The position numbers and the translations under genes were made by a program. The notes under the pieces are model-generated. The model saw nothing but the letters and a program-made list of their open reading frames with translations. It was not told where the DNA came from and did no database searches. Shown piece by piece: positions 3,473 to 51,976 of a DNA stretch of 64,000 nucleotides. The stretch is from Planctomycetota bacterium (GTDB lineage Bacteria; Planctomycetota; Planctomycetia; Gemmatales; Gemmataceae), in assembly GCA_016191165.1 (NCBI GenBank), contig JACPPF010000015.1, positions 1-64,000 on the forward strand, given 5' to 3'. The first letter of the stretch is position 1; every line of letters begins with the position of its first letter.

Positions 3473-3613
3473 GGCCTGGTTCAAATCGATCGAATTTAGG
3501 GTAACAAACAATCCGCGAGCCGCCGGGCGTGTCCCGGCGGTGAACCAAGGCGGATCGGGATGACCGCCGGGACAAGCCCGGCGGCTCGCTGTGACTTTCA
3601 CTTGAACCAGGCC
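3473..3613. mobile_element. MITE-like hairpin element, copy A
   Basis: A 141-bp element bounded by perfect 12-bp terminal inverted repeats GGCCTGGTTCAA (3473-3484) and TTGAACCAGGCC (3602-3613). It is flanked by a perfect 8-bp target duplication ATCATTTC (3465-3472 and 3614-3621). The centre is a long stem with CGAGCCGCCGGGC on one side and GCCCGGCGGCTCG on the other; each arm is itself palindromic (CCGCCGGG/CCCGGCGG). It has no gene. It lies immediately upstream of the methyltransferase and would separate it from any upstream promoter. Copies B, C and D are at 3862, 8690 and 51835. Confidence 0.9.
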
Positions 3614-3861: not shown

Positions 3862-4003
3862 GGCCTAGGTCAAATCGATCGAATCCGGGGTAACAAACCA
3901 ACCGCGAGCCGTCGGGCTTGTCCCGGCGGTGAACCAAGGCGGATCGGGATGAACCGCCGGGACAAGCCCGGCGGCTCGCTGTGACTTTCACTTTAACCAG
4001 GCC
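3862..4003. mobile_element. MITE-like hairpin element, copy B
   Basis: A 142-bp copy in the same orientation as copy A. The termini have drifted (GGCCTAGGTCAA and TTTAACCAGGCC), but the 8-bp target duplication CTGGGGCT is perfect (3854-3861 and 4004-4011). The central stem and the loop (GGTGAACCAAGGCGGATC) match copy A almost base for base. It lies about 190 bp upstream of wecB. Confidence 0.9.
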
Positions 4004-7211: not shown

Positions 7212-7613
7212 TCAGTCCGGCCGGCGATTGGATGGCCGGGCGTCGCCCATCGGTTCGAGGTGGTCATTTTGCTGATGGTCGGCTTTACCGGGCGGTAGGG
7301 GGCGTTTGCTTTTGGACGGGGAATCCTTGCTGCCGATTTGGCCGGTCACATCTTCGAGGCCGTCGGCGCCCTGGCGCGCCGGGAAATAGCCCGCCACCGT
7401 CAAATATCCGGCGAGCAACAGGGCGATACCCGCGGCCAGGACGATGCGCCCTGAATAACGCGCGAACACCGTCTCAGGCTGTTTGACGCGCGTCTGTTTG
7501 GGGGCCTGGAACGTCGGCCAGGGGCGAGGCAACTCGGACTGGAAATAGTCGTGCAAGAGCACATCCACGTCAGGACGTTGTTCATCGTTCGGCATCATCG
7601 TCATATTACTCAT
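7212..7613 (-). CDS. Small single-pass membrane protein, probable anti-sigma partner
   Basis: 133 residues. A hydrophilic N-terminal segment of about 55 residues is followed by one membrane helix (RIVLAAGIALLLAGYLTVAGYF) and a charged, proline- and lysine-rich tail. The start codon overlaps the end of the ECF sigma gene by eight bases, so the two are translationally coupled. Coupling to a sigma factor and the one-helix layout suggest an anti-sigma factor that holds the sigma factor at the membrane. No zinc-binding HxxxCxxC motif is present, so this role is inferred from context only. Confidence 0.6.
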   Translation of the reverse strand: MSNMTMMPNDEQRPDVDVLLHDYFQSELPRPWPTFQAPKQTRVKQPETVFARYSGRIVLAAGIALLLAGYLTVAGYFPARQGADGLEDVTGQIGSKDSPSKSKRPLPPGKADHQQNDHLEPMGDARPSNRRPD

Positions 7614-8151
7614 GGGTTTCCTTCACTCCCTGGGCTGTCAAACGCTCGGCGAGACGCTGGCGCGCCCGGCTCAAGCGCATATGGACGGCGGTCGGGTTGA
7701 TTTCCAAAACCTCCGCGATCTGGCTGGTGTCATATTCCAGCGCATAGCGAAGCGTCAAAATTTCGCGGTCGGCCGGGGCGAGCTGCTCCATCTCCTTGCG
7801 GATTTGGCCGAACGTCTCGTCGCGGGCCATGCCATCGAGCGGCAGGATTTCGCGGCCTTCCACCCCATTCATCGTCTGGGGAGGTTGGGTTCCGTAACGG
7901 CGGAACGCGCTCTTGGCGTGATCCTCGGCCAGGTTGCGCGCTACACGCAGAACCCAGGCGCGCGGGTTGACGATTTCGCTGCCTTCCTGCCATTGCCTCC
8001 ACAAACGCAAGAAGGTTTCCTGCATGATGTCGAGCGCAATATCCGCGTTAAGCCAGCGCGCGTAAACCAAAGCCCACACCTCGCGGCTATGACGTTCGTA
8101 GATTTCTTCAAAGTCCGCCTGGTGCGGAGGCTGTTTCCGCCTCGACTTCAT
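7606..8151 (-). CDS. ECF-family RNA polymerase sigma factor
   Basis: 181 residues with the two sigma-70 domains of ECF factors. Region 2 contains FEEIYERHSREVWALVYARWLNADIALDIMQETFLRLWRQW, and region 4 contains LAPADREILTLRYALEYDTSQIAEVLEINPTAVHMRLSRARQRL with a helix-turn-helix. It would direct RNA polymerase to a small regulon, probably including its own promoter in the 8152-8844 gap. The overlapping downstream membrane protein is a candidate anti-sigma factor. The lysine- and glutamine-rich first ten residues are unremarkable. Confidence 0.92.
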   Translation of the reverse strand: MKSRRKQPPHQADFEEIYERHSREVWALVYARWLNADIALDIMQETFLRLWRQWQEGSEIVNPRAWVLRVARNLAEDHAKSAFRRYGTQPPQTMNGVEGREILPLDGMARDETFGQIRKEMEQLAPADREILTLRYALEYDTSQIAEVLEINPTAVHMRLSRARQRLAERLTAQGVKETHE

Positions 8152-8689
8152 GGGCCCTCGTCCCTGCCATTTTTTTTGTCGCGGCAGGAGCCGTCGCTGG
8201 GTGCAAAAGAGGAACGAAACTCGAAGGATTTTCTAACACCAAACTGGCATCCGTCGGTGGCTTGCGGACAATCAGGAGCCGGAATTCCAGGCGTGGTTCA
8301 AAAGGCGTCGGGTTCGGGTAACTCAAGGATTGCCGAAAGAAGGCGAACACGCCGTTGGGTAGTGTCACAGTTTGATTGTAGACCTCACGCTCCGCGTGAG
8401 GTCTACCATACGCCGAAGCAAAGTGAGACACCACCCGTCGTTGCTGACATCGACTGATGTGAGAAGTCCACTTTGCTCCATAACCCATAAATTTGCAACA
8501 CGTTACAGCGTTTTTTTTGAGGACTTCTCACGGGGCGCGGGGGGTATCACGACCGGGAAGTTTGGGAAAGCCAGGTAGATTTGGATTGTCACCTCGGTTT
8601 GAACCAGGCCGAATTCCATTTCCGCCGGGAAATCCAGCCATTCCGCCCAAACTTCCAGGCCTGGATTCCTCCGCGTCCCGTGATAAGTC
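8152..8689. other. Long non-coding gap upstream of the sigma gene, rich in palindromes
   Basis: No gene is supported here. The segment holds a perfect short hairpin at 8378-8406. At 8521-8690 there is a degenerate inverted-repeat region: ATCACG and GGAAGTTTGGG at 8545-8570 are mirrored by CCCAAACTTCC and CGTGAT at 8646-8684. The string TTTGAACCAGGCC at 8598-8610 is identical to the right end of the MITE-like element, as if an older copy once ended there. The sigma gene promoter should lie near 8160-8300, but I cannot assign boxes. Confidence 0.5.
8378..8406. repeat. Perfect 13-bp hairpin, 'GTAGACCTCACGC' family
   Basis: GTAGACCTCACGC (8378-8390), loop TCC, then GCGTGAGGTCTAC (8394-8406). The same core (CTCACGC, GCGTGAGGTCTAC) recurs inside the enolase gene at 44832-44879, so this is a dispersed palindromic family and not a chance hairpin. 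Confidence 0.85.
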
Positions 8690-8831
8690 GGCGTGGTTCA
8701 AATCCATCGATTTTAGGCGAACAAACAATCCGCGAGCCGCCGGGCTTGTCCCCGCAGTGCATCCCGATCCGCCTTGGTTCACCGCCGGGACAAGCCCGGC
8801 GGCTCGCTGTGACTTTCACTTGAACCAGGCC
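8690..8831. mobile_element. MITE-like hairpin element, copy C (centre inverted)
   Basis: A 142-bp copy with right end TTGAACCAGGCC and slightly decayed left end GGCGTGGTTCAA. Outer flanks and stem arms have the same orientation as copies A, B and D. The 22-bp centre between the arms is reverse-complemented: GCATCCCGATCCGCCTTGG here, where the others read CCAAGGCGGATCGGGATG. No target duplication is visible. It ends 14 bp from the proB stop codon, so a proB transcript would read into it. Confidence 0.88.
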
Positions 8832-8844
8832 CATGTTTGGAGAT

Positions 8845-9981
8845 TCATGTCGTTACTACCAGGTTATCGCGATGAACGATTTCCTCATAGGGGAAGGCGC
8901 CGACGACCTCCGCAATTTTTTCCGTGCGCAGGCCCAGGATTTGTCCGGCGTCGTCCGATGAATAGTTGGTCAAGCCGCGGGCGAACTCCTGCCCGGCCTG
9001 ATCGCACAGGGCGACGACATCGCCTTTGCTGAATGTGCCCTGGACCTGGATGACACCCACAGGTAATAGGCTCTTGCCCTGTTGATGGACCGCGAAGCGG
9101 GCGCCGTCATTGACCAGAATTTTCCCCCTGGGCCGGGCCGTGAAGCCGACCCAGCGCTTCCAGGCTGGCAGCGAATTGCCGTGCGGCAGAAAAAGGGTCC
9201 CGATCGGCGCGCAGGCAAAAATCTCGTCGAGCGTGCCTGGCTGGGCGCCGTTGGCCATGATTACCGATTCCCCCGCCGCCGTCGCCAGGCGGGCGGCCCG
9301 TAACTTGCTCCTCATTCCACCCGTACCCAGCGAACTCTGGCTGGCGCCCGCCATTTCCATGACGGCCATGTCGATGTGGTCGACCGTGGCGATTTTTTGG
9401 GCGTTCGGATCGCTGCGCGGGTCGGTGCGGTAGAGACCATCCACCACGGTCAACAGGATGAGCAACGGCGCCTGCAACAGATTCGTCACCATCGCGGCCA
9501 GGTGATCGTTGTCCCCAAACTTGATCTCGGCAATGCTGACCGTGTCGTTCTCGTTGATGATCGGCACGACACCCCATTCAAAGAGGGTGACGATGGTATT
9601 GCGTGCATTGAGGTACCGGGCCCGGCTATCAAAATCGCTCGCTGTCAGCAGAATTTGTGCGGTATGGACGTTGTGTTGGTCGAAACATTCCTGATAGGCG
9701 CGCATGAGGAAGTTTTGCCCGATGGCAGCGCACGCCTGAAGTTGCCGCAGATCCGTCGGCCTTTGCGAGAGTCCGAGGCGTCCGACACCCGCGCCGATGG
9801 CGCCGGAGCTTACGAGGGCGACCTTGCGACCGGTCTGGCGAAGGCGTTGCACCTGATCTGCCAGGGCTTGCAAACGTTGAGCGTCGAGGCGCCCATCGTC
9901 CCCTGTCAGGACGTTGGTGCCAATCTTGACCACGACCGTGTGGGCTTGGGTCACGATTTCTTGGCGCACGGGGTCCAGCAT
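8845..9981 (-). CDS. proB: Glutamate 5-kinase (with C-terminal PUA domain)
   Basis: 378 residues. It phosphorylates L-glutamate to gamma-glutamyl phosphate, the first step of proline synthesis. Amino-acid kinase motifs are present: VVVKIGTNVLTG near residue 17, LVSSGAIGAGVGRLGL, IINENDTVSIAEIKFGDNDHLAAMV and GTGGMRSKLRAARLA. The final 110 residues (PRGKILVNDGARFAVHQQGKSLLPVGVIQVQGTFSKGDVV) form the PUA domain of the long form of the enzyme. The frame is open upstream to 10071, but homology starts at MLDPVRQEIV (ATG at 9981). No proA lies next to it in the window. It is divergent from the S41 protease gene. Confidence 0.95.
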   Translation of the reverse strand: MLDPVRQEIVTQAHTVVVKIGTNVLTGDDGRLDAQRLQALADQVQRLRQTGRKVALVSSGAIGAGVGRLGLSQRPTDLRQLQACAAIGQNFLMRAYQECFDQHNVHTAQILLTASDFDSRARYLNARNTIVTLFEWGVVPIINENDTVSIAEIKFGDNDHLAAMVTNLLQAPLLILLTVVDGLYRTDPRSDPNAQKIATVDHIDMAVMEMAGASQSSLGTGGMRSKLRAARLATAAGESVIMANGAQPGTLDEIFACAPIGTLFLPHGNSLPAWKRWVGFTARPRGKILVNDGARFAVHQQGKSLLPVGVIQVQGTFSKGDVVALCDQAGQEFARGLTNYSSDDAGQILGLRTEKIAEVVGAFPYEEIVHRDNLVVTT

Positions 9982-10150
9982 CGTTGTAGCACGTGTGCGG
10001 AGCAAACTCCGCGGGAAAACGGAGAAACCTGTATATTTTCGCCAACCCGAAAAACTTTCGCAATTTGGCAAACGTCTATTTGACGTGGCCTCTCCTCTCC
10101 TTTATACTGAGGGGCGGAACTGGGCCTATCCTTGGCCGGAGGATTCTTCC

Positions 10151-20980: not shown

Positions 20981-21330
20981 TTGGCGTGCGCGTGAAGCCT
21001 ACCAATCAGGTGATGGAGGAAGTCTGCCCGTGCCACGAATTGACAAATCCTCAATTAACGAGCCGCGATCGTAAGGGACCGTTGGGCTCGTTCCCGCTCC
21101 CTTACCGTCGCAGCTCGTAACAATTGTGCTAATCTCGAGCGCGTGCAGTATATCGTGCTCGCGCTCCCCTTCGGGTCGCGGCTAAACGTGTCATACGCTC
21201 CCGCGCGGGGTGTTTTTCTTGTTTTTCAGTGGTTTTGCTTTTTTTGTGAAAGAAATCTCTCCCTCGTGCCATTTCTATTGAGGACGCGCCGCGTGCGCGA
21301 GACGGAAAAGGCATTCTGAGGGATATCTCC
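20981..21330. other. Non-coding gap with two repeat families upstream of the proline-rich gene
   Basis: 350 bp without a supported gene. It holds the palindrome at 21058-21118 and, at 21161-21187, a solo half (GCGCTCCCCTTCGGGTCGCGGCTAAAC split over the line) of the hairpin seen complete at 46313-46378. A T-rich stretch at 21211-21246 follows GCTCCCGCGCGGGG and might act as a weak terminator. GAGG precedes the ATG at 21331. Confidence 0.5.
21058..21118. repeat. Palindromic repeat, 'ACGAGCCGCGATCGTAAGGGA' family
   Basis: The left arm 21058-21078 is mirrored at 21098-21118 with two mismatches, giving a stem of about 20 bp with a 19-bp loop containing CCGTTGGGCTCG. A partial copy is at 11832-11890. 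Confidence 0.8.
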
Positions 21331-22101
21331 ATGAAACGCATCTTGCTCATTCTTGCGGTCAGCCTGTGCGCCAGCGGGCCCGCGATGGCTCAACGCGGGC
21401 GTCACAACGCCATGGCCAGTCACGCGAATTGCTGCTGTAACCAGATGCGAATGCCTTTCAGCCAGGGCGGCAACCTGCGGCTGCCCTACATGCAGATGCA
21501 GATGTCATTTCCGCAGGCAGGGAACATGCGGATGCCCTACCAGAACCCCTTCCAGCAGCGCGGTGGCTTTCAGGTGCCGCATCGGCCTAATGTCAACGTC
21601 CGCAATCCCATGGTGCCGCCGGGCAATTTCCCCAGGCCCATCGTTCCGAACGTCGTGTTCCAAAACCCGATCGTGCCGCAGGGCAATTTCCCCCGGCCCA
21701 TCGTTCCCAACGTCGTGTTCCAAAACCCGATCGTGCCGCAGGGCAATTTCCCCCGGCCAATCGTTCCCAATATCGTGGTCCAAAACCCGATCGTGCCGAA
21801 CGTGGTCTTTCAGAACCCGATCATCCCCAACTTTCCGCCCGCGAATCCGGTGGCGCCGGACGTGGTGTTCATGAACCCGATCGTCCCCAATGTGCCGGTT
21901 ACCCCGATGGTCGTTTCCAAAAGTCCACTCGACCCAATCTTCCCACCGGCGAATCCCGTGGCGCCGAACACGCCGCCCCAGGACCCGATGGCGACGACGT
22001 CGAACGTTCAGAATCCGATCGCTCAGTTGGAAAGCCGGCCGGTGCCGCCGCCGCGCGTGGTGTATCAGGGCCCAGCCGGCACGACCACGGGGCCCCGCTG
22101 A
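21331..22101 (+). CDS. Secreted proline/asparagine-rich repeat protein
   Basis: 256 residues. The N-terminus MKRILLILAVSLCASGPAMA is a clear signal peptide. Then comes a methionine/glutamine-rich part with a short Cys pair (NCCCNQMRMPF), and from about residue 95 tandem repeats built on PIVPNVVFQNPIVPQGNFPR. Three units are nearly identical at DNA level with a 60-bp period (about 21622-21800), followed by decayed ones. This points to recent expansion by slippage or unequal exchange. No enzyme motif is present. A structural or cell-wall role is possible but not shown. Confidence 0.7.
   Translation: MKRILLILAVSLCASGPAMAQRGRHNAMASHANCCCNQMRMPFSQGGNLRLPYMQMQMSFPQAGNMRMPYQNPFQQRGGFQVPHRPNVNVRNPMVPPGNFPRPIVPNVVFQNPIVPQGNFPRPIVPNVVFQNPIVPQGNFPRPIVPNIVVQNPIVPNVVFQNPIIPNFPPANPVAPDVVFMNPIVPNVPVTPMVVSKSPLDPIFPPANPVAPNTPPQDPMATTSNVQNPIAQLESRPVPPPRVVYQGPAGTTTGPR
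21622..21800 (+). repeat. Three tandem 60-bp coding repeats
   Basis: The 60-bp unit starts GGCAATTTCCCC at about 21622, 21682 and 21742. The copies differ at a few bases only and keep the reading frame, producing 20-residue units of the proline-rich protein. Confidence 0.85.
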
Positions 22102-25844: not shown

Positions 25845-25919
25845 CTGGCTCTTCTCCCGGCGCTGGCGTGTTCCTTGGTGGTATGATATGACGCGCGCGG
25901 AAAAGGTTCGCTTGACGAC

Positions 25920-25946
25920 CCGCTCGCCAAAGGCGAGCGGCTAAAC
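25920..25946. repeat. Short perfect hairpin CCGCTCGCC-AAA-GGCGAGCGG
   Basis: A 9-bp stem with AAA loop followed by CTAAAC. It matches the right half of the 'GTTTAGCCGCTCGCC' hairpin at 48205-48264. It lies in the divergent gap between the MATE gene and malQ. Confidence 0.8.
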
Positions 25947-40862: not shown

Positions 40863-41624
40863 ATGCCGATACACAACTGGTCCGCCGTCAGCGACGGGAT
40901 GTTTCATTGGTTCCATCAGACCTGGATCGTCGCCATTGCAAAGTGGCTGAACGAGGGTCGCCTGCCCGAGGGTTTCTACGCCATCGGCGAGGTCTACGCC
41001 AACGAGGTTGAACCCGACGTGTTGGCGGTCGAAGATCGTCCGCCCGAAGTTGGCCGGGCTAATGGACATTCATCCAACGGGTTCGGCGTCGCGCTTTTGG
41101 AGTCGCCGCCCAAAACGCGTTACAACTGGGAAGCGGAGACGGAATCGTATCTGGCCAGAAAAGATCTCATCGCCGTGCATAGCGTCGAGGGCATTCTGGT
41201 CTCGGTGATTGAGATCGTCTCGGCCGGCAACAAGTCGAGCCAGGCACGCTTTCGCAAGTTTCTCACGAAGACGATCGAGTTTCTGGATCAAGGCGTGCAC
41301 GTCCTCGTCGTCGATCTTTTCCCGCCGACGCCGCGCGACCCGCAGGGGATTCATCAAGCGATCTGGAGCGAAAAATACGATGGTGATTTCGAGTTCCACG
41401 CAGACAAGCCCTTGACGCTGGCCTCCTATCGAGCCACCACGGAGGGAAGCGTTGCCCGCTCGTTCGTCGAACCGATCGCCGTCGGCGACGCGCTGCCCGC
41501 GATGCCGTTGTTCCTGTGGTCCGATCGCTACATCAACGTGGAACTTGAGCAGACCTATCAAAGCGCGTGGGAGGTTTATCCGGGACCGTTGAAGCCGAAG
41601 GTTGAGAGGGGGGCGGCGGGGTGA
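40863..41624 (+). CDS. DUF4058 family protein
   Basis: 253 residues starting MPIHNWSAVSDGMFHWFHQTWI; GAAGGAGG lies just upstream of the ATG. Family blocks are VHSVEGILVSVIEIVSAGNKSSQARFRKF and FLDQGVHVLVVDLFPPTPRDPQG. The VIEIVS strand and the Lys that follows fit a nuclease-like fold, but the function is unknown. DUF4058 genes are multi-copy in planctomycetes and cyanobacteria, as Uma2 genes are. The last 190 bp are duplicated at 42401-42587, on the far side of the PIN-domain module. Confidence 0.88.
   Translation: MPIHNWSAVSDGMFHWFHQTWIVAIAKWLNEGRLPEGFYAIGEVYANEVEPDVLAVEDRPPEVGRANGHSSNGFGVALLESPPKTRYNWEAETESYLARKDLIAVHSVEGILVSVIEIVSAGNKSSQARFRKFLTKTIEFLDQGVHVLVVDLFPPTPRDPQGIHQAIWSEKYDGDFEFHADKPLTLASYRATTEGSVARSFVEPIAVGDALPAMPLFLWSDRYINVELEQTYQSAWEVYPGPLKPKVERGAAG
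41433..41624 (+). repeat. Direct repeat, left copy (3' end of DUF4058 gene)
   Basis: From GCCACCAC at 41433 to the TGA at 41624. It matches 42401-42587 over its whole length, with the last 162 bp aligned without gaps and only about a dozen differences. The two copies flank the PIN-domain gene pair. Confidence 0.9.
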
Positions 41625-41732
41625 GATTCGATGCTGCCTTTCCCTCTCAGCACGGCGCCTTTCCATCGTCGGTTTGTGTAGAGTAAACGTTATCTTCGCT
41701 TGCAGAAGCGGACGTGGTCGAAGAGAACGCAG

Positions 41733-42400: not shown

Positions 42401-42587
42401 GCCACCACGAGAGCGTCGCCGCTTCTTCGTCGAACCGATCGCCGTTGGCGACGCGCTTCCGGCGATGCCGTTGTTCCTGTGGTCCGATCGCTACATCAAC
42501 GTGGAACTTGAGCAGACCTATCAGGGCGCGTGGGACGTTTATCCGGGGCCGTTGAAGCCGAAGGTTGAGAGCGGGGCGGCGGGGTGA
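42401..42587 (+). pseudogene. Duplicated 3' end of a DUF4058 gene (remnant)
   Basis: Encodes FVEPIAVGDALPAMPLFLWSDRYINVELEQTYQGAWDVYPGPLKPKVESGAAG, nearly identical to the last 57 residues of the 40863 protein. It has no start or 5' part, and begins four bases after the stop codon of the small PIN partner. It is either the scar of a tandem DUF4058 paralogue whose front was replaced by the PIN module, or a repeat created when the module integrated. Confidence 0.85.
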
Positions 42588-42637
42588 GCGTTTCTAAGAT
42601 TACAAACCAAACACGTCATATCGGGAGGCATCGAGTG

Positions 42638-43973: not shown

Positions 43974-45284
43974 CTAAATGGCGATCGGATTCCACCGCGC
44001 GAACGCCGGCCCGGCTCCCATCTGCTCCTCGATGCGTAGGAGCTGGTTGTACTTCGCGAGCCGTTCGCTGCGCGCGATGGAGCCGATCTTGATCTGGCCA
44101 ACTCCGGTGGCGACCGCCAGATCGGCGATGGTGCTGTCCTCGGTTTCGCCGCTTCTTGCCGAGACGACGCAGCGATAGCCCGCGGCCCGCGCCTGGTCGA
44201 TGACGGCGAACGTCTCGGTCAGCGTCCCGATCTGGTTGACCTTGATGAGTATGCTGTTGGCGACGCCCTGTTCGATGCCCGTCTTCAGGCGATTGGGATT
44301 GGTGGCGAAGAGATCATCGCCGACGAGTTGCACGCGTTGGCCGAGCGATTCGGTCAACGTTTTCCAGCCGGCCCAATCGTCCTCGGCCATGCCGTCCTCG
44401 ATCGAGAGGATGGGATAGCGGTCGGCCCAATCGGTCAGCATCGCGGTCATCGCATGCGCGGACAGGAGCATGCCCTGCAAGCGATAAAACCCGTCCGCAA
44501 AAAAGTGGGTGCTCGCGACGTCAAGTGCGATGGCGGCGTCCTTTCCGGCGTGCAACCCGGCGCGGCGAAATGCGTGCAGAATCAATTCGATCGCCTGTTC
44601 GTTATGGTTCAGCCTGGGGCCGAAGCCGCCCTCATCGCCGACGAGGACGCCTTCGTAGCCGTGTTCTTGCAGCGTGACGCTGAGGGCGCGATAGACGCGC
44701 ACGGTCATGTGCAGCGCTTCGGAGTACGAATTTGCGCCTATAGGTAAAAACAGGAAGTCTTGCATGTCGAGGTTGCGCCCAGCGTGCAGGCCGCCGCTGA
44801 TGAGGTTGACCATTGGCAAAGGCATGGTAGGCGTCACGCTCCGCGTGACGGATCCCTCACGCGGAGCGTGAGGTCTACGATCGAGATATTGCCAGAGCGG
44901 AATTCCCTTGGCTGTCGCCGCCGCGTGAGCGCAGGCCAGCGAGACGCCGAGGATGGCGTTCGCGCCCAGGCGCGACTTGTCGGGCGTGCCGTCGAGCTCG
45001 CCCATCGTGCGGTCGATCGTTTCCTGGTCGGACGCCGACATGCCGACGAGCGCAGGGGCAAGCGTCTCACGAACGTGAACGACCGCTTTGCGCACGCTCT
45101 TGCCGGCGTAGTCGTCGGGGTCGCCGTCGCGCAGTTCTAACGCTTCGTGCTTGCCGGTGCTGGCCCCGGACGGCACGATGGCACGGCCCATCGCGCTGCC
45201 GCAGTGGACCTCGACCTCCACCGTCGGCGTGCCGCGGCTGTCGAGGACCTGGCGGGCGTGGATGGCTGTAATGCAATTACTCAC
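43974..45284 (-). CDS. eno: Enolase, with an in-frame palindromic insertion
   Basis: 436 residues from a GTG at 45284; GGGAGG lies six bases upstream, and the GTG overlaps the stop codon of the upstream gene (GTGA). It converts 2-phosphoglycerate to phosphoenolpyruvate. Blocks are ARQVLDSRGTPTVEVEV, PSGASTGKHEALELRD, GDEGGFGPRLNHNEQA, LSIEDGMAEDDWAGW, LVGDDLFATNP, KVNQIGTLTET and SARSGETEDSTIADLAVATGVGQIKIGS, covering metal and catalytic positions. Residues 136-151 (RRPHAPREGSVTRSVT) are encoded by a palindromic repeat between LWQYLD and PTMPLPMVN and replace the short loop there. The divergent HAGRNLDMQDF motif places it in an atypical enolase branch. Confidence 0.92.
   Translation of the reverse strand: MSNCITAIHARQVLDSRGTPTVEVEVHCGSAMGRAIVPSGASTGKHEALELRDGDPDDYAGKSVRKAVVHVRETLAPALVGMSASDQETIDRTMGELDGTPDKSRLGANAILGVSLACAHAAATAKGIPLWQYLDRRPHAPREGSVTRSVTPTMPLPMVNLISGGLHAGRNLDMQDFLFLPIGANSYSEALHMTVRVYRALSVTLQEHGYEGVLVGDEGGFGPRLNHNEQAIELILHAFRRAGLHAGKDAAIALDVASTHFFADGFYRLQGMLLSAHAMTAMLTDWADRYPILSIEDGMAEDDWAGWKTLTESLGQRVQLVGDDLFATNPNRLKTGIEQGVANSILIKVNQIGTLTETFAVIDQARAAGYRCVVSARSGETEDSTIADLAVATGVGQIKIGSIARSERLAKYNQLLRIEEQMGAGPAFARWNPIAI
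44832..44879 (-). repeat. 'CTCACGC' palindrome inserted in frame in the enolase gene
   Basis: GTCACGCTCCGCGTGAC and CCTCACGCGGAGCGTGAGG are two adjacent hairpins, bounded by GTAG and CTAC. The right half equals the intergenic hairpin at 8378-8406. It adds 16 codons without breaking the frame. Confidence 0.85.
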
Positions 45285-46312: not shown

Positions 46313-46378
46313 GTTTAGCCGCGACCCGAAGGGGCGCGCGAGCGTGAAGCCGCGCTCCCCTTCGGGTCGCGGCTAAAC
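46313..46378. repeat. Long hairpin GTTTAGCCGCGACCCGAAGGGG
   Basis: The left arm (46313-46334) is perfectly mirrored by the right arm (46357-46378), with a 22-bp loop that itself contains GCGC-rich parts. The right half recurs alone at 21161-21187. It lies between the SDR and kinase genes and overlaps no coding region. Confidence 0.9.
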
Positions 46379-48204: not shown

Positions 48205-48264
48205 GTTTAGCCGCTCGCCTTGGGCGAGCGTGAACCCCCGCTCGCCCAAGGCGAGCGGCTAAAC
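48205..48264. repeat. Perfect 26-bp hairpin GTTTAGCCGCTCGCC
   Basis: The left arm 48205-48230 and right arm 48239-48264 are exact inverted copies around an 8-bp loop. A half-size relative is at 25920-25946. Both the ends (GTTTAGCCGC) and the design match the hairpin at 46313. Its last base touches the stop codon of the ABC ATPase gene. Confidence 0.92.
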
Positions 48265-51834: not shown

Positions 51835-51976
51835 GACCTGTTTCAAATCCATCGCTCTTAGGTTAACAAATAATCCGCGAGCCGCCGGGCGTGTCCCGGC
51901 GGTGAACCAAAGCGGACCGGGATGCACCGCCGGGACAAGCCCGGCGGCTCGCTGTGACCTTCCCTTGAACCAGGCC
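51835..51976. mobile_element. MITE-like hairpin element, copy D
   Basis: A 142-bp copy with right end TTGAACCAGGCC (51965-51976) and decayed left end GACCTGTTTCAA. The flanking 8-mers AGGCTTTC and AGACATTC agree at six positions, consistent with an old target duplication. Stem and centre match copies A and B. It lies between mazG and the large membrane protein gene, ending 31 bp before the latter's start codon. Confidence 0.88.

Follow-up and report, generated by a model that had tools for sequence, protein, structure and literature searches.

Locus and Element Architecture

The window, a 64,000-nucleotide stretch of DNA from a Planctomycetota bacterium, contains copies A, B, C and D of a short repeat, hereafter family 1. 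Copy C lies beside a complete copy and a remnant of a second repeat family, between a proB-like gene and a gene for a sigma-70 protein (Table 1).

Table 1. Coordinates of the features at the locus of copy C and of the other family-1 copies in the window.
Feature	Position	Strand	Details
MITE family 1, copy C	8690..8831	+	142 bp; inverted centre
Copy C, left outer segment	8690..8731	+	terminal repeat GGCGTGGTTCAA (8690-8701)
Copy C, left stem arm	8732..8758	+	inner end CCCCGCAGT, two sites off the usual CCCGGCGGT
Copy C, centre	8759..8780	-	22 bp; reverse complement of the usual centre (22/22)
Copy C, right stem arm	8781..8807	+	
Copy C, right outer segment	8808..8831	+	terminal repeat TTGAACCAGGCC (8820-8831)
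MITE family 1, copy A	3473..3613	+	forward centre 3542-3562; duplication ATCATTTC
MITE family 1, copy B	3862..4003	+	forward centre 3931-3952; duplication CTGGGGCT
MITE family 1, copy D	51835..51976	+	forward centre 51904-51925; duplication decayed (6/8)
MITE family 2, complete copy	8290..8610	+	321 bp; left end GGCGTGGTTCAAAAGG, right end TTTGAACCAGGCC (8598-8610)
Duplication of the family-2 copy	8282-8289 and 8611-8618		GAATTCCA
MITE family 2, remnant	8645..8689	-	45 bp; directly left of C; ends GTGATAAGTC
Amino-acid-kinase + PUA gene, proB-like	8845..10071	-	13 bp between C and the stop codon
Sigma-70 region 2 + region 4 protein, read here as ECF type	7606..8151	-	across the two MITEs from the proB-like gene

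The outer ends and outer segments of copy C are colinear with those of A, B and D and run in the same orientation. Its centre agrees with the commonest forward centre, GAACCAAGGCGGATCGGGATGC, at 22/22 positions when reverse-complemented and at 8/22 when left unreversed, and the best match to the commonest centre among 100,000 letter shuffles of the C centre reached 16 positions. The reverse-complemented centre reported in the initial annotation was thus confirmed, its coordinates included. The accompanying claim that both ends and stem arms keep the common orientation holds for the ends and outer segments; the arms cannot really be judged in this respect, because they are inverted repeats of one another. 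The inner end of the left arm offers a hint of its own, as a search of the 81 copies in which both arms are full met CCCCGCAGT elsewhere just twice, each time on the right arm of a forward copy (C63_12630 and C44_3580), suggesting that the inner arms of C may have flipped along with the centre.

The string TTTGAACCAGGCC, taken at first as standing alone and as a hint of an older nested insertion, turned out to be the right terminus of the complete family-2 copy, which has GAATTCCA on both sides. The suggested nested insertion was therefore wrong in detail, since the string is part of an intact MITE next to C, although C does abut a family-2 remnant. This remnant matches the interior of five family-2 copies (L144-L148) at 82-85%, and the window's own family-2 copy aligns with it too. 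Four more full copies (L145-L148) measure 234-236 bp and lack about 87 bp of the window copy, a segment holding a palindrome that recurs near 44824-44888. The remnant's terminal GTGATAAGTC resembles GTGAGAAGTC, the insertion target of copies L048, L077 and L090.

Copy C is without a target duplication, its left flank GATAAGTC and right flank CATGTTTG agreeing at 3/8 positions, and the duplication was either lost or never present. The right part of the target is missing, and a deletion that began at the right end of C would account for this loss. A flank swap between C and another copy was also considered and gave nothing convincing, the best match being 6/8 for the right side (L102) and 7/8 for the left side (L077 and L090, with a similar GAGAAGTC target). 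The reading of the locus is a modest one, namely a decaying MITE cluster between two genes. Elsewhere in the genome, an insertion chain at the start of L147 (1-427, C128) runs from a family-1 right end through a complete family-1 copy to a family-2 copy, the three being separated by nearly identical spacers of 8 bp.

Family 1 Is a Non-Autonomous MITE

Family 1 is a MITE of about 142 bp and is non-autonomous. Its termini, GGCCTGGTTCAA and TTGAACCAGGCC, are inverted repeats that agree at 12/16 of the outermost positions in C and at 13/16 in A. The 8-bp direct repeats that flank the copies are exact in 23 of 80 rows and carry one mismatch in 19 more, so that at least 7/8 positions match in 42 of the 80 (one locus, L046, being listed twice among these rows); by our own arithmetic, such a match would arise by chance with a probability of about 0.0004 per copy. 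The element is non-coding, the listed open reading frames that overlap C starting or stopping outside it, and its 142 bp lie under the limit of about 600 bp without coding capacity that is set for MITEs.

Internally, the element has an inverted repeat with arms of 27 bp and a spacer of 22 bp between them. Each arm, usually GCGAGCCGCCGGGCTTGTCCCGGCGGT, is itself a GC-rich palindrome (CCGCCGGG-CTTGT-CCCGGCGG), and the perfect match between the arms of C spans 21 bp. The predicted hairpin fold of C reaches -43.5 kcal/mol against -23.7 +/- 3.0 for shuffled sequences, and that of A -52.9 against a shuffle mean of -25.4. Matches to the Rfam families mir-629 and mir-3199 stayed below the gathering scores and were taken as chance hairpin similarity.

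Family 1 resembles the bacterial MITEs in being short and gene-free, with terminal inverted repeats, target duplications of fixed length and a high copy number, and in sharing its ends with a larger transposase-bearing element. It differs from them in the inner 27-bp inverted repeat with a loop present both ways round, and in that its partner transposase was not convincingly found in the same genome. The GC-rich palindromic arms face each other as in a REP dimer (PMC3733652), whereas the terminal repeats and 8-bp duplications of family-1 copies set them apart from REP/BIME elements. The GTAG or CGTC tag by which the same paper defines the REP super-families is absent at the ends of the usual arm GCGAGCCGCCGGGCTTGTCCCGGCGGT.

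A Candidate Mobiliser with Matching Ends

The left ends of families 1 and 2 have the pattern GGCSTGGTTCAAA-N10-TTNGGGTAAC in common. A scan of a collection of species genomes for this pattern returned 68 stretches in several phyla, 21 of which encode pieces of one transposase family. The corresponding IS group is about 1.7 kb long, with GGCSTGGTTCAAA ends, 8-bp duplications and a transposase of about 490 amino acids (e.g., L210 1575-3287, L231 and L232). A right-end search at 11 of the scan loci found the right end in 10, with an exact 8-bp duplication in one (L210) and 0-5/8 matching positions in the other nine. Among six transposase loci from the genomes of three relatives, L231 and L232 have both ends and an exact duplication, L237 has both ends without a duplication, and L233, L238 and L239 have one end each.

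Searches of Pfam and NCBIfam gave no match above cut-off for the transposase of this group. The ISH6 profile NF041731 matched the partner-type transposase weakly, with E-values of 0.01 and 0.077 and scores of 14.6 and 11.7 bits against a curated cut-off of 240. The ISH6 family has a target duplication of 8 bp; the scores lie far under the cut-off, and the group was not filed as ISH6. In the 14 plasmid records that match the transposase, most labelled hits are hypothetical proteins; a "transposase" label and an "IS6 family transposase" label are each covered as well by a single match. The conserved residues D157, D219 and E421 suggest that it is a DDE enzyme. A PDB sequence search with the transposase returned nothing credible, and its predicted structure had a mean pLDDT of 58, too poor to compare.

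This transposase was found in 6 of 99 relatives, and the source genome, a 95%-complete draft, yielded nothing convincing, one search giving no match and another a single match of 13.6 bits (E 0.055). The IS group that shares the MITE ends thus occurs elsewhere, and no autonomous partner was convincingly found in the source genome. An autonomous partner in the same genome is usual, yet it is not essential for an orphan MITE, and within the 95%-complete draft the MITEs of the source genome look orphaned. As other possible mobilisers, DDE_Tnp_ISL3 and DDE_Tnp_IS1595 had no match in the genome, and its one copy of Transposase_mut (IS256) has no flanking pair of such ends, only single partial likenesses with 2-3 mismatches. 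On contigs C44 and C69, left ends close to the contig termini resembled those of an autonomous IS, but both read as MITE copies interrupted by other repeats, since what follows the left end recurs elsewhere without a MITE end.

Ends of the same kind also turned up in other settings. In a Planctomycetota MAG (JACQVW01), L183, L214 and L222 form a separate, orphan-like MITE family of 128 bp with exact 8-bp duplications. A facing pair of such left ends, 2300 bp apart and without a duplication, encloses genes that we read as Rieske-dioxygenase-like at L172 (1914-4213).

Census of Centre Orientation

The 7.2-Mb genome is available as a 95%-complete draft of 183 contigs and holds about eighty family-1 copies. 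A profile search over fetched stretches, chosen by similarity, by arm pattern (at most 3 mismatches, at least 121 matches) and by end pattern, so that the census is large rather than complete, gave 100 family-1 hits with fragments included. Sixteen were dropped as not scorable for the centre; among the remaining 84, 77 centres are forward, 5 inverted (one weak) and 2 ambiguous, a tally in which C138_55 and C15_39011, with an identical 14-bp left flank and maybe one locus at two contig ends, count twice. Both orientations are therefore present among the genome copies, the scoring of which had been proposed at the outset.

The inverted copies are C itself (C173_8690), C54_67885, C68_4693, C84_8280 and C183_11399. 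The last is the weaker call, since its reading as an inverted copy on the opposite strand relies on a single end that is decayed. Target duplications are kept (at least 7/8) in three of the four full inverted copies. The counter-case raised at the outset, with every other copy reading one way and C an assembly error, fails because four other inverted copies exist (one weak). In a comparison with relatives, in which at most 14 candidates were scored per genome, 6 of 59 relatives matched (E <= 0.001); the matches listed each covered 24-32 bp at or close to an arm, and no orthologous copy was readable.

One Flip or Several

C68_4693 and C84_8280 carry inverted centres of the same variant type, 2 of 22 positions apart, with flanks that are unrelated within the 3.1-kb loci compared. 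Each has a duplication of its own, CTAAATGG (8/8) in C68_4693 and TAAA(A/G)ATC (7/8) in C84_8280. The same variant centre within different flanks and duplications argues that the inverted form was copied onward, and the inverted element itself was most likely transposed in this pair.

The inverted centre of C is identical to the commonest forward type, unlike the centres of C68_4693 and C84_8280. The type of this pair has four substitutions in common with one forward copy, C39_12118. Such sharing is expected in 0.025 copies, calculated post hoc over the 72 forward copies with a 22-base centre, but C39_12118 is old and has diverged, and a centre of 22 bp holds little information. As two centre types occur inverted, at least two flips are favoured, and on this comparison the 5 inverted copies among the 84 scorable hits likely arose by two flips or more.

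A possible but rather unlikely alternative concerns the number of flips and not their mechanism: a single ancient flip would have founded a minor subfamily from which all inverted copies descend by transposition. A tree was built from 62 full copies with the centre columns left out (120 alignment columns; 36 of 59 inner branches open). The pairing of C68_4693 with C84_8280 on it (support 98/77, not starred) accords with a single origin, as do a topology test that did not reject grouping the four full inverted copies in one clade (p-AU 0.172) and a weak clustering of the inverted label (34 of 500 shuffles as low). Against it, the best tree needs 3 orientation changes, the 5-95% bootstrap range is also 3, and one origin was obtained in 0 of 200 bootstrap trees. 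Moreover, C54_67885 and C173_8690 each form a lone branch of open placement that does not join the pair, and the centre type of the pair also occurs forward in C39_12118.

How the Loop Flipped

The loop flip in this MITE is real and well documented; the process is a known one, and its setting is somewhat unusual. For chloroplast DNA, minute inversions of hairpin loops were reportedly described by Kelchner and Wendel in 1996. In chloroplast trnH-psbA, loops of 25-27 bp between arms of at least 18 bp invert within species (PMC2903610). Such loops are about as long as the 22-bp loop of the MITE, although that case concerns one locus varying between plants and the present one different copies in one genome. 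In yeast, template switching at short inverted repeats gives spacer inversion and arm homogenisation (PMC8604942), and the spacers seen inverted there changed by only 2-5 bp. There as here, the spacer alone is reversed between inverted repeats, and parallel recurrence is possible. The MITE differs in several ways: it is a mobile element with many copies in a bacterium, its spacer is longer at 22 bp and was apparently copied onward by transposition, and its arm homogenisation is weak.

Hairpin-mediated inversion of the spacer by template switching, followed by transposition, is the best explanation and probably the correct one, judged from the sequences at hand. Copy C would have been cut or copied and pasted by a putative transposase acting on the terminal repeats. 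The 27-bp inverted repeat around the spacer is predicted to fold into a long hairpin, within which a replicating strand may rarely switch between the complementary arms and back, leaving the spacer, probably with the inner arms, reversed. The reversed form would then be inherited and remain able to transpose, as the C68_4693/C84_8280 pair supports. The geometry, in which near-perfect inverted arms enclose a short spacer, is that of template-switch inversion and argues for this mechanism. Against it counts the weakness of arm homogenisation, which accompanies template switching: across the 81 copies with two full 27-base arms, variants common to both arms of a copy show no clear excess, numbering 4 against 1.8 expected (P 0.11), though the two arms of one copy are slightly more alike than pairs formed by shuffling (P 0.02).

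Recombination through the arms could yield the same reversed spacer, either by a crossover between the two 27-bp arms of C or by gene conversion from a copy aligned backwards through its arms. The arms are nearly identical, dozens of donor copies are at hand, and the two-substitution haplotype on the left arm of C, otherwise found on the right arms of C63_12630 and C44_3580, would fit a reverse-exchanged tract of inner arm and centre. Both substitutions, however, are individually recurrent, so the haplotype may be a coincidence, and with just 22 bp between the arms an ordinary crossover has little space. Sequence alone cannot separate this route from replication; recombination is conceivable but was considered somewhat unlikely.

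An assembly or amplification artefact at the hairpin is very improbable. The draft consists of 183 contigs and some copies run into contig ends (e.g., C15, C110, C121, C128 and C175), but C sits 8.7 kb inside its contig with a perfect arm match of just 21 bp, the inverted centre of C54 has a 1-bp deletion unseen in the other scored centres, and one variant type of inverted centre recurs in C68 and C84, whose locations are unrelated. Least probable of all is a programmed switch in which a site-specific recombinase would act on the arms to flip each locus: a segment flanked by inverted repeats does occur in both orientations in the genome, but 77 of 82 classified copies lie one way round, and at 22 bp the segment is far from the much greater length of described promoter invertons. 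In the initial annotation, recombination or replication across the hairpin had been named beside an invertible element; the former is the best-supported reading, and nothing found supports regulated inversion: the segment is short, and three of the four full inverted copies, with their duplications kept, look like ordinary inherited insertions.

A bolder form of the template-switch account, which we regard as doubtful, is that the loop flips repeatedly in the life cycle of the element, the hairpin becoming single-stranded around transposition or replication and the loop thus acting as a heritable two-state feature that changes during spread. If so, the loops of multicopy MITEs would be a natural counter of template switching in bacteria. 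No title among the literature matches listed names a loop flip in a bacterial MITE, and the cases found there are single loci in chloroplasts or yeast genes. With about eighty hairpin copies that have their own substitutions and duplications, loop flips and arm conversions become countable in a bacterium from sequence alone. A side product is the IS group spread over several phyla, with its transposase lacking an above-cut-off Pfam or NCBIfam match.

Other repeats were also observed in the window. Overlapping direct repeats with 30- and 60-bp spacing occupy 21586-21828, and a direct repeat of 170 bp, 94% identical, lies at 41456-41625 and 42419-42588. Another palindromic repeat family, ending GCGGCTAAAC, is found at 25910-25946, 46342-46378, 48228-48264 and 21157-21187.
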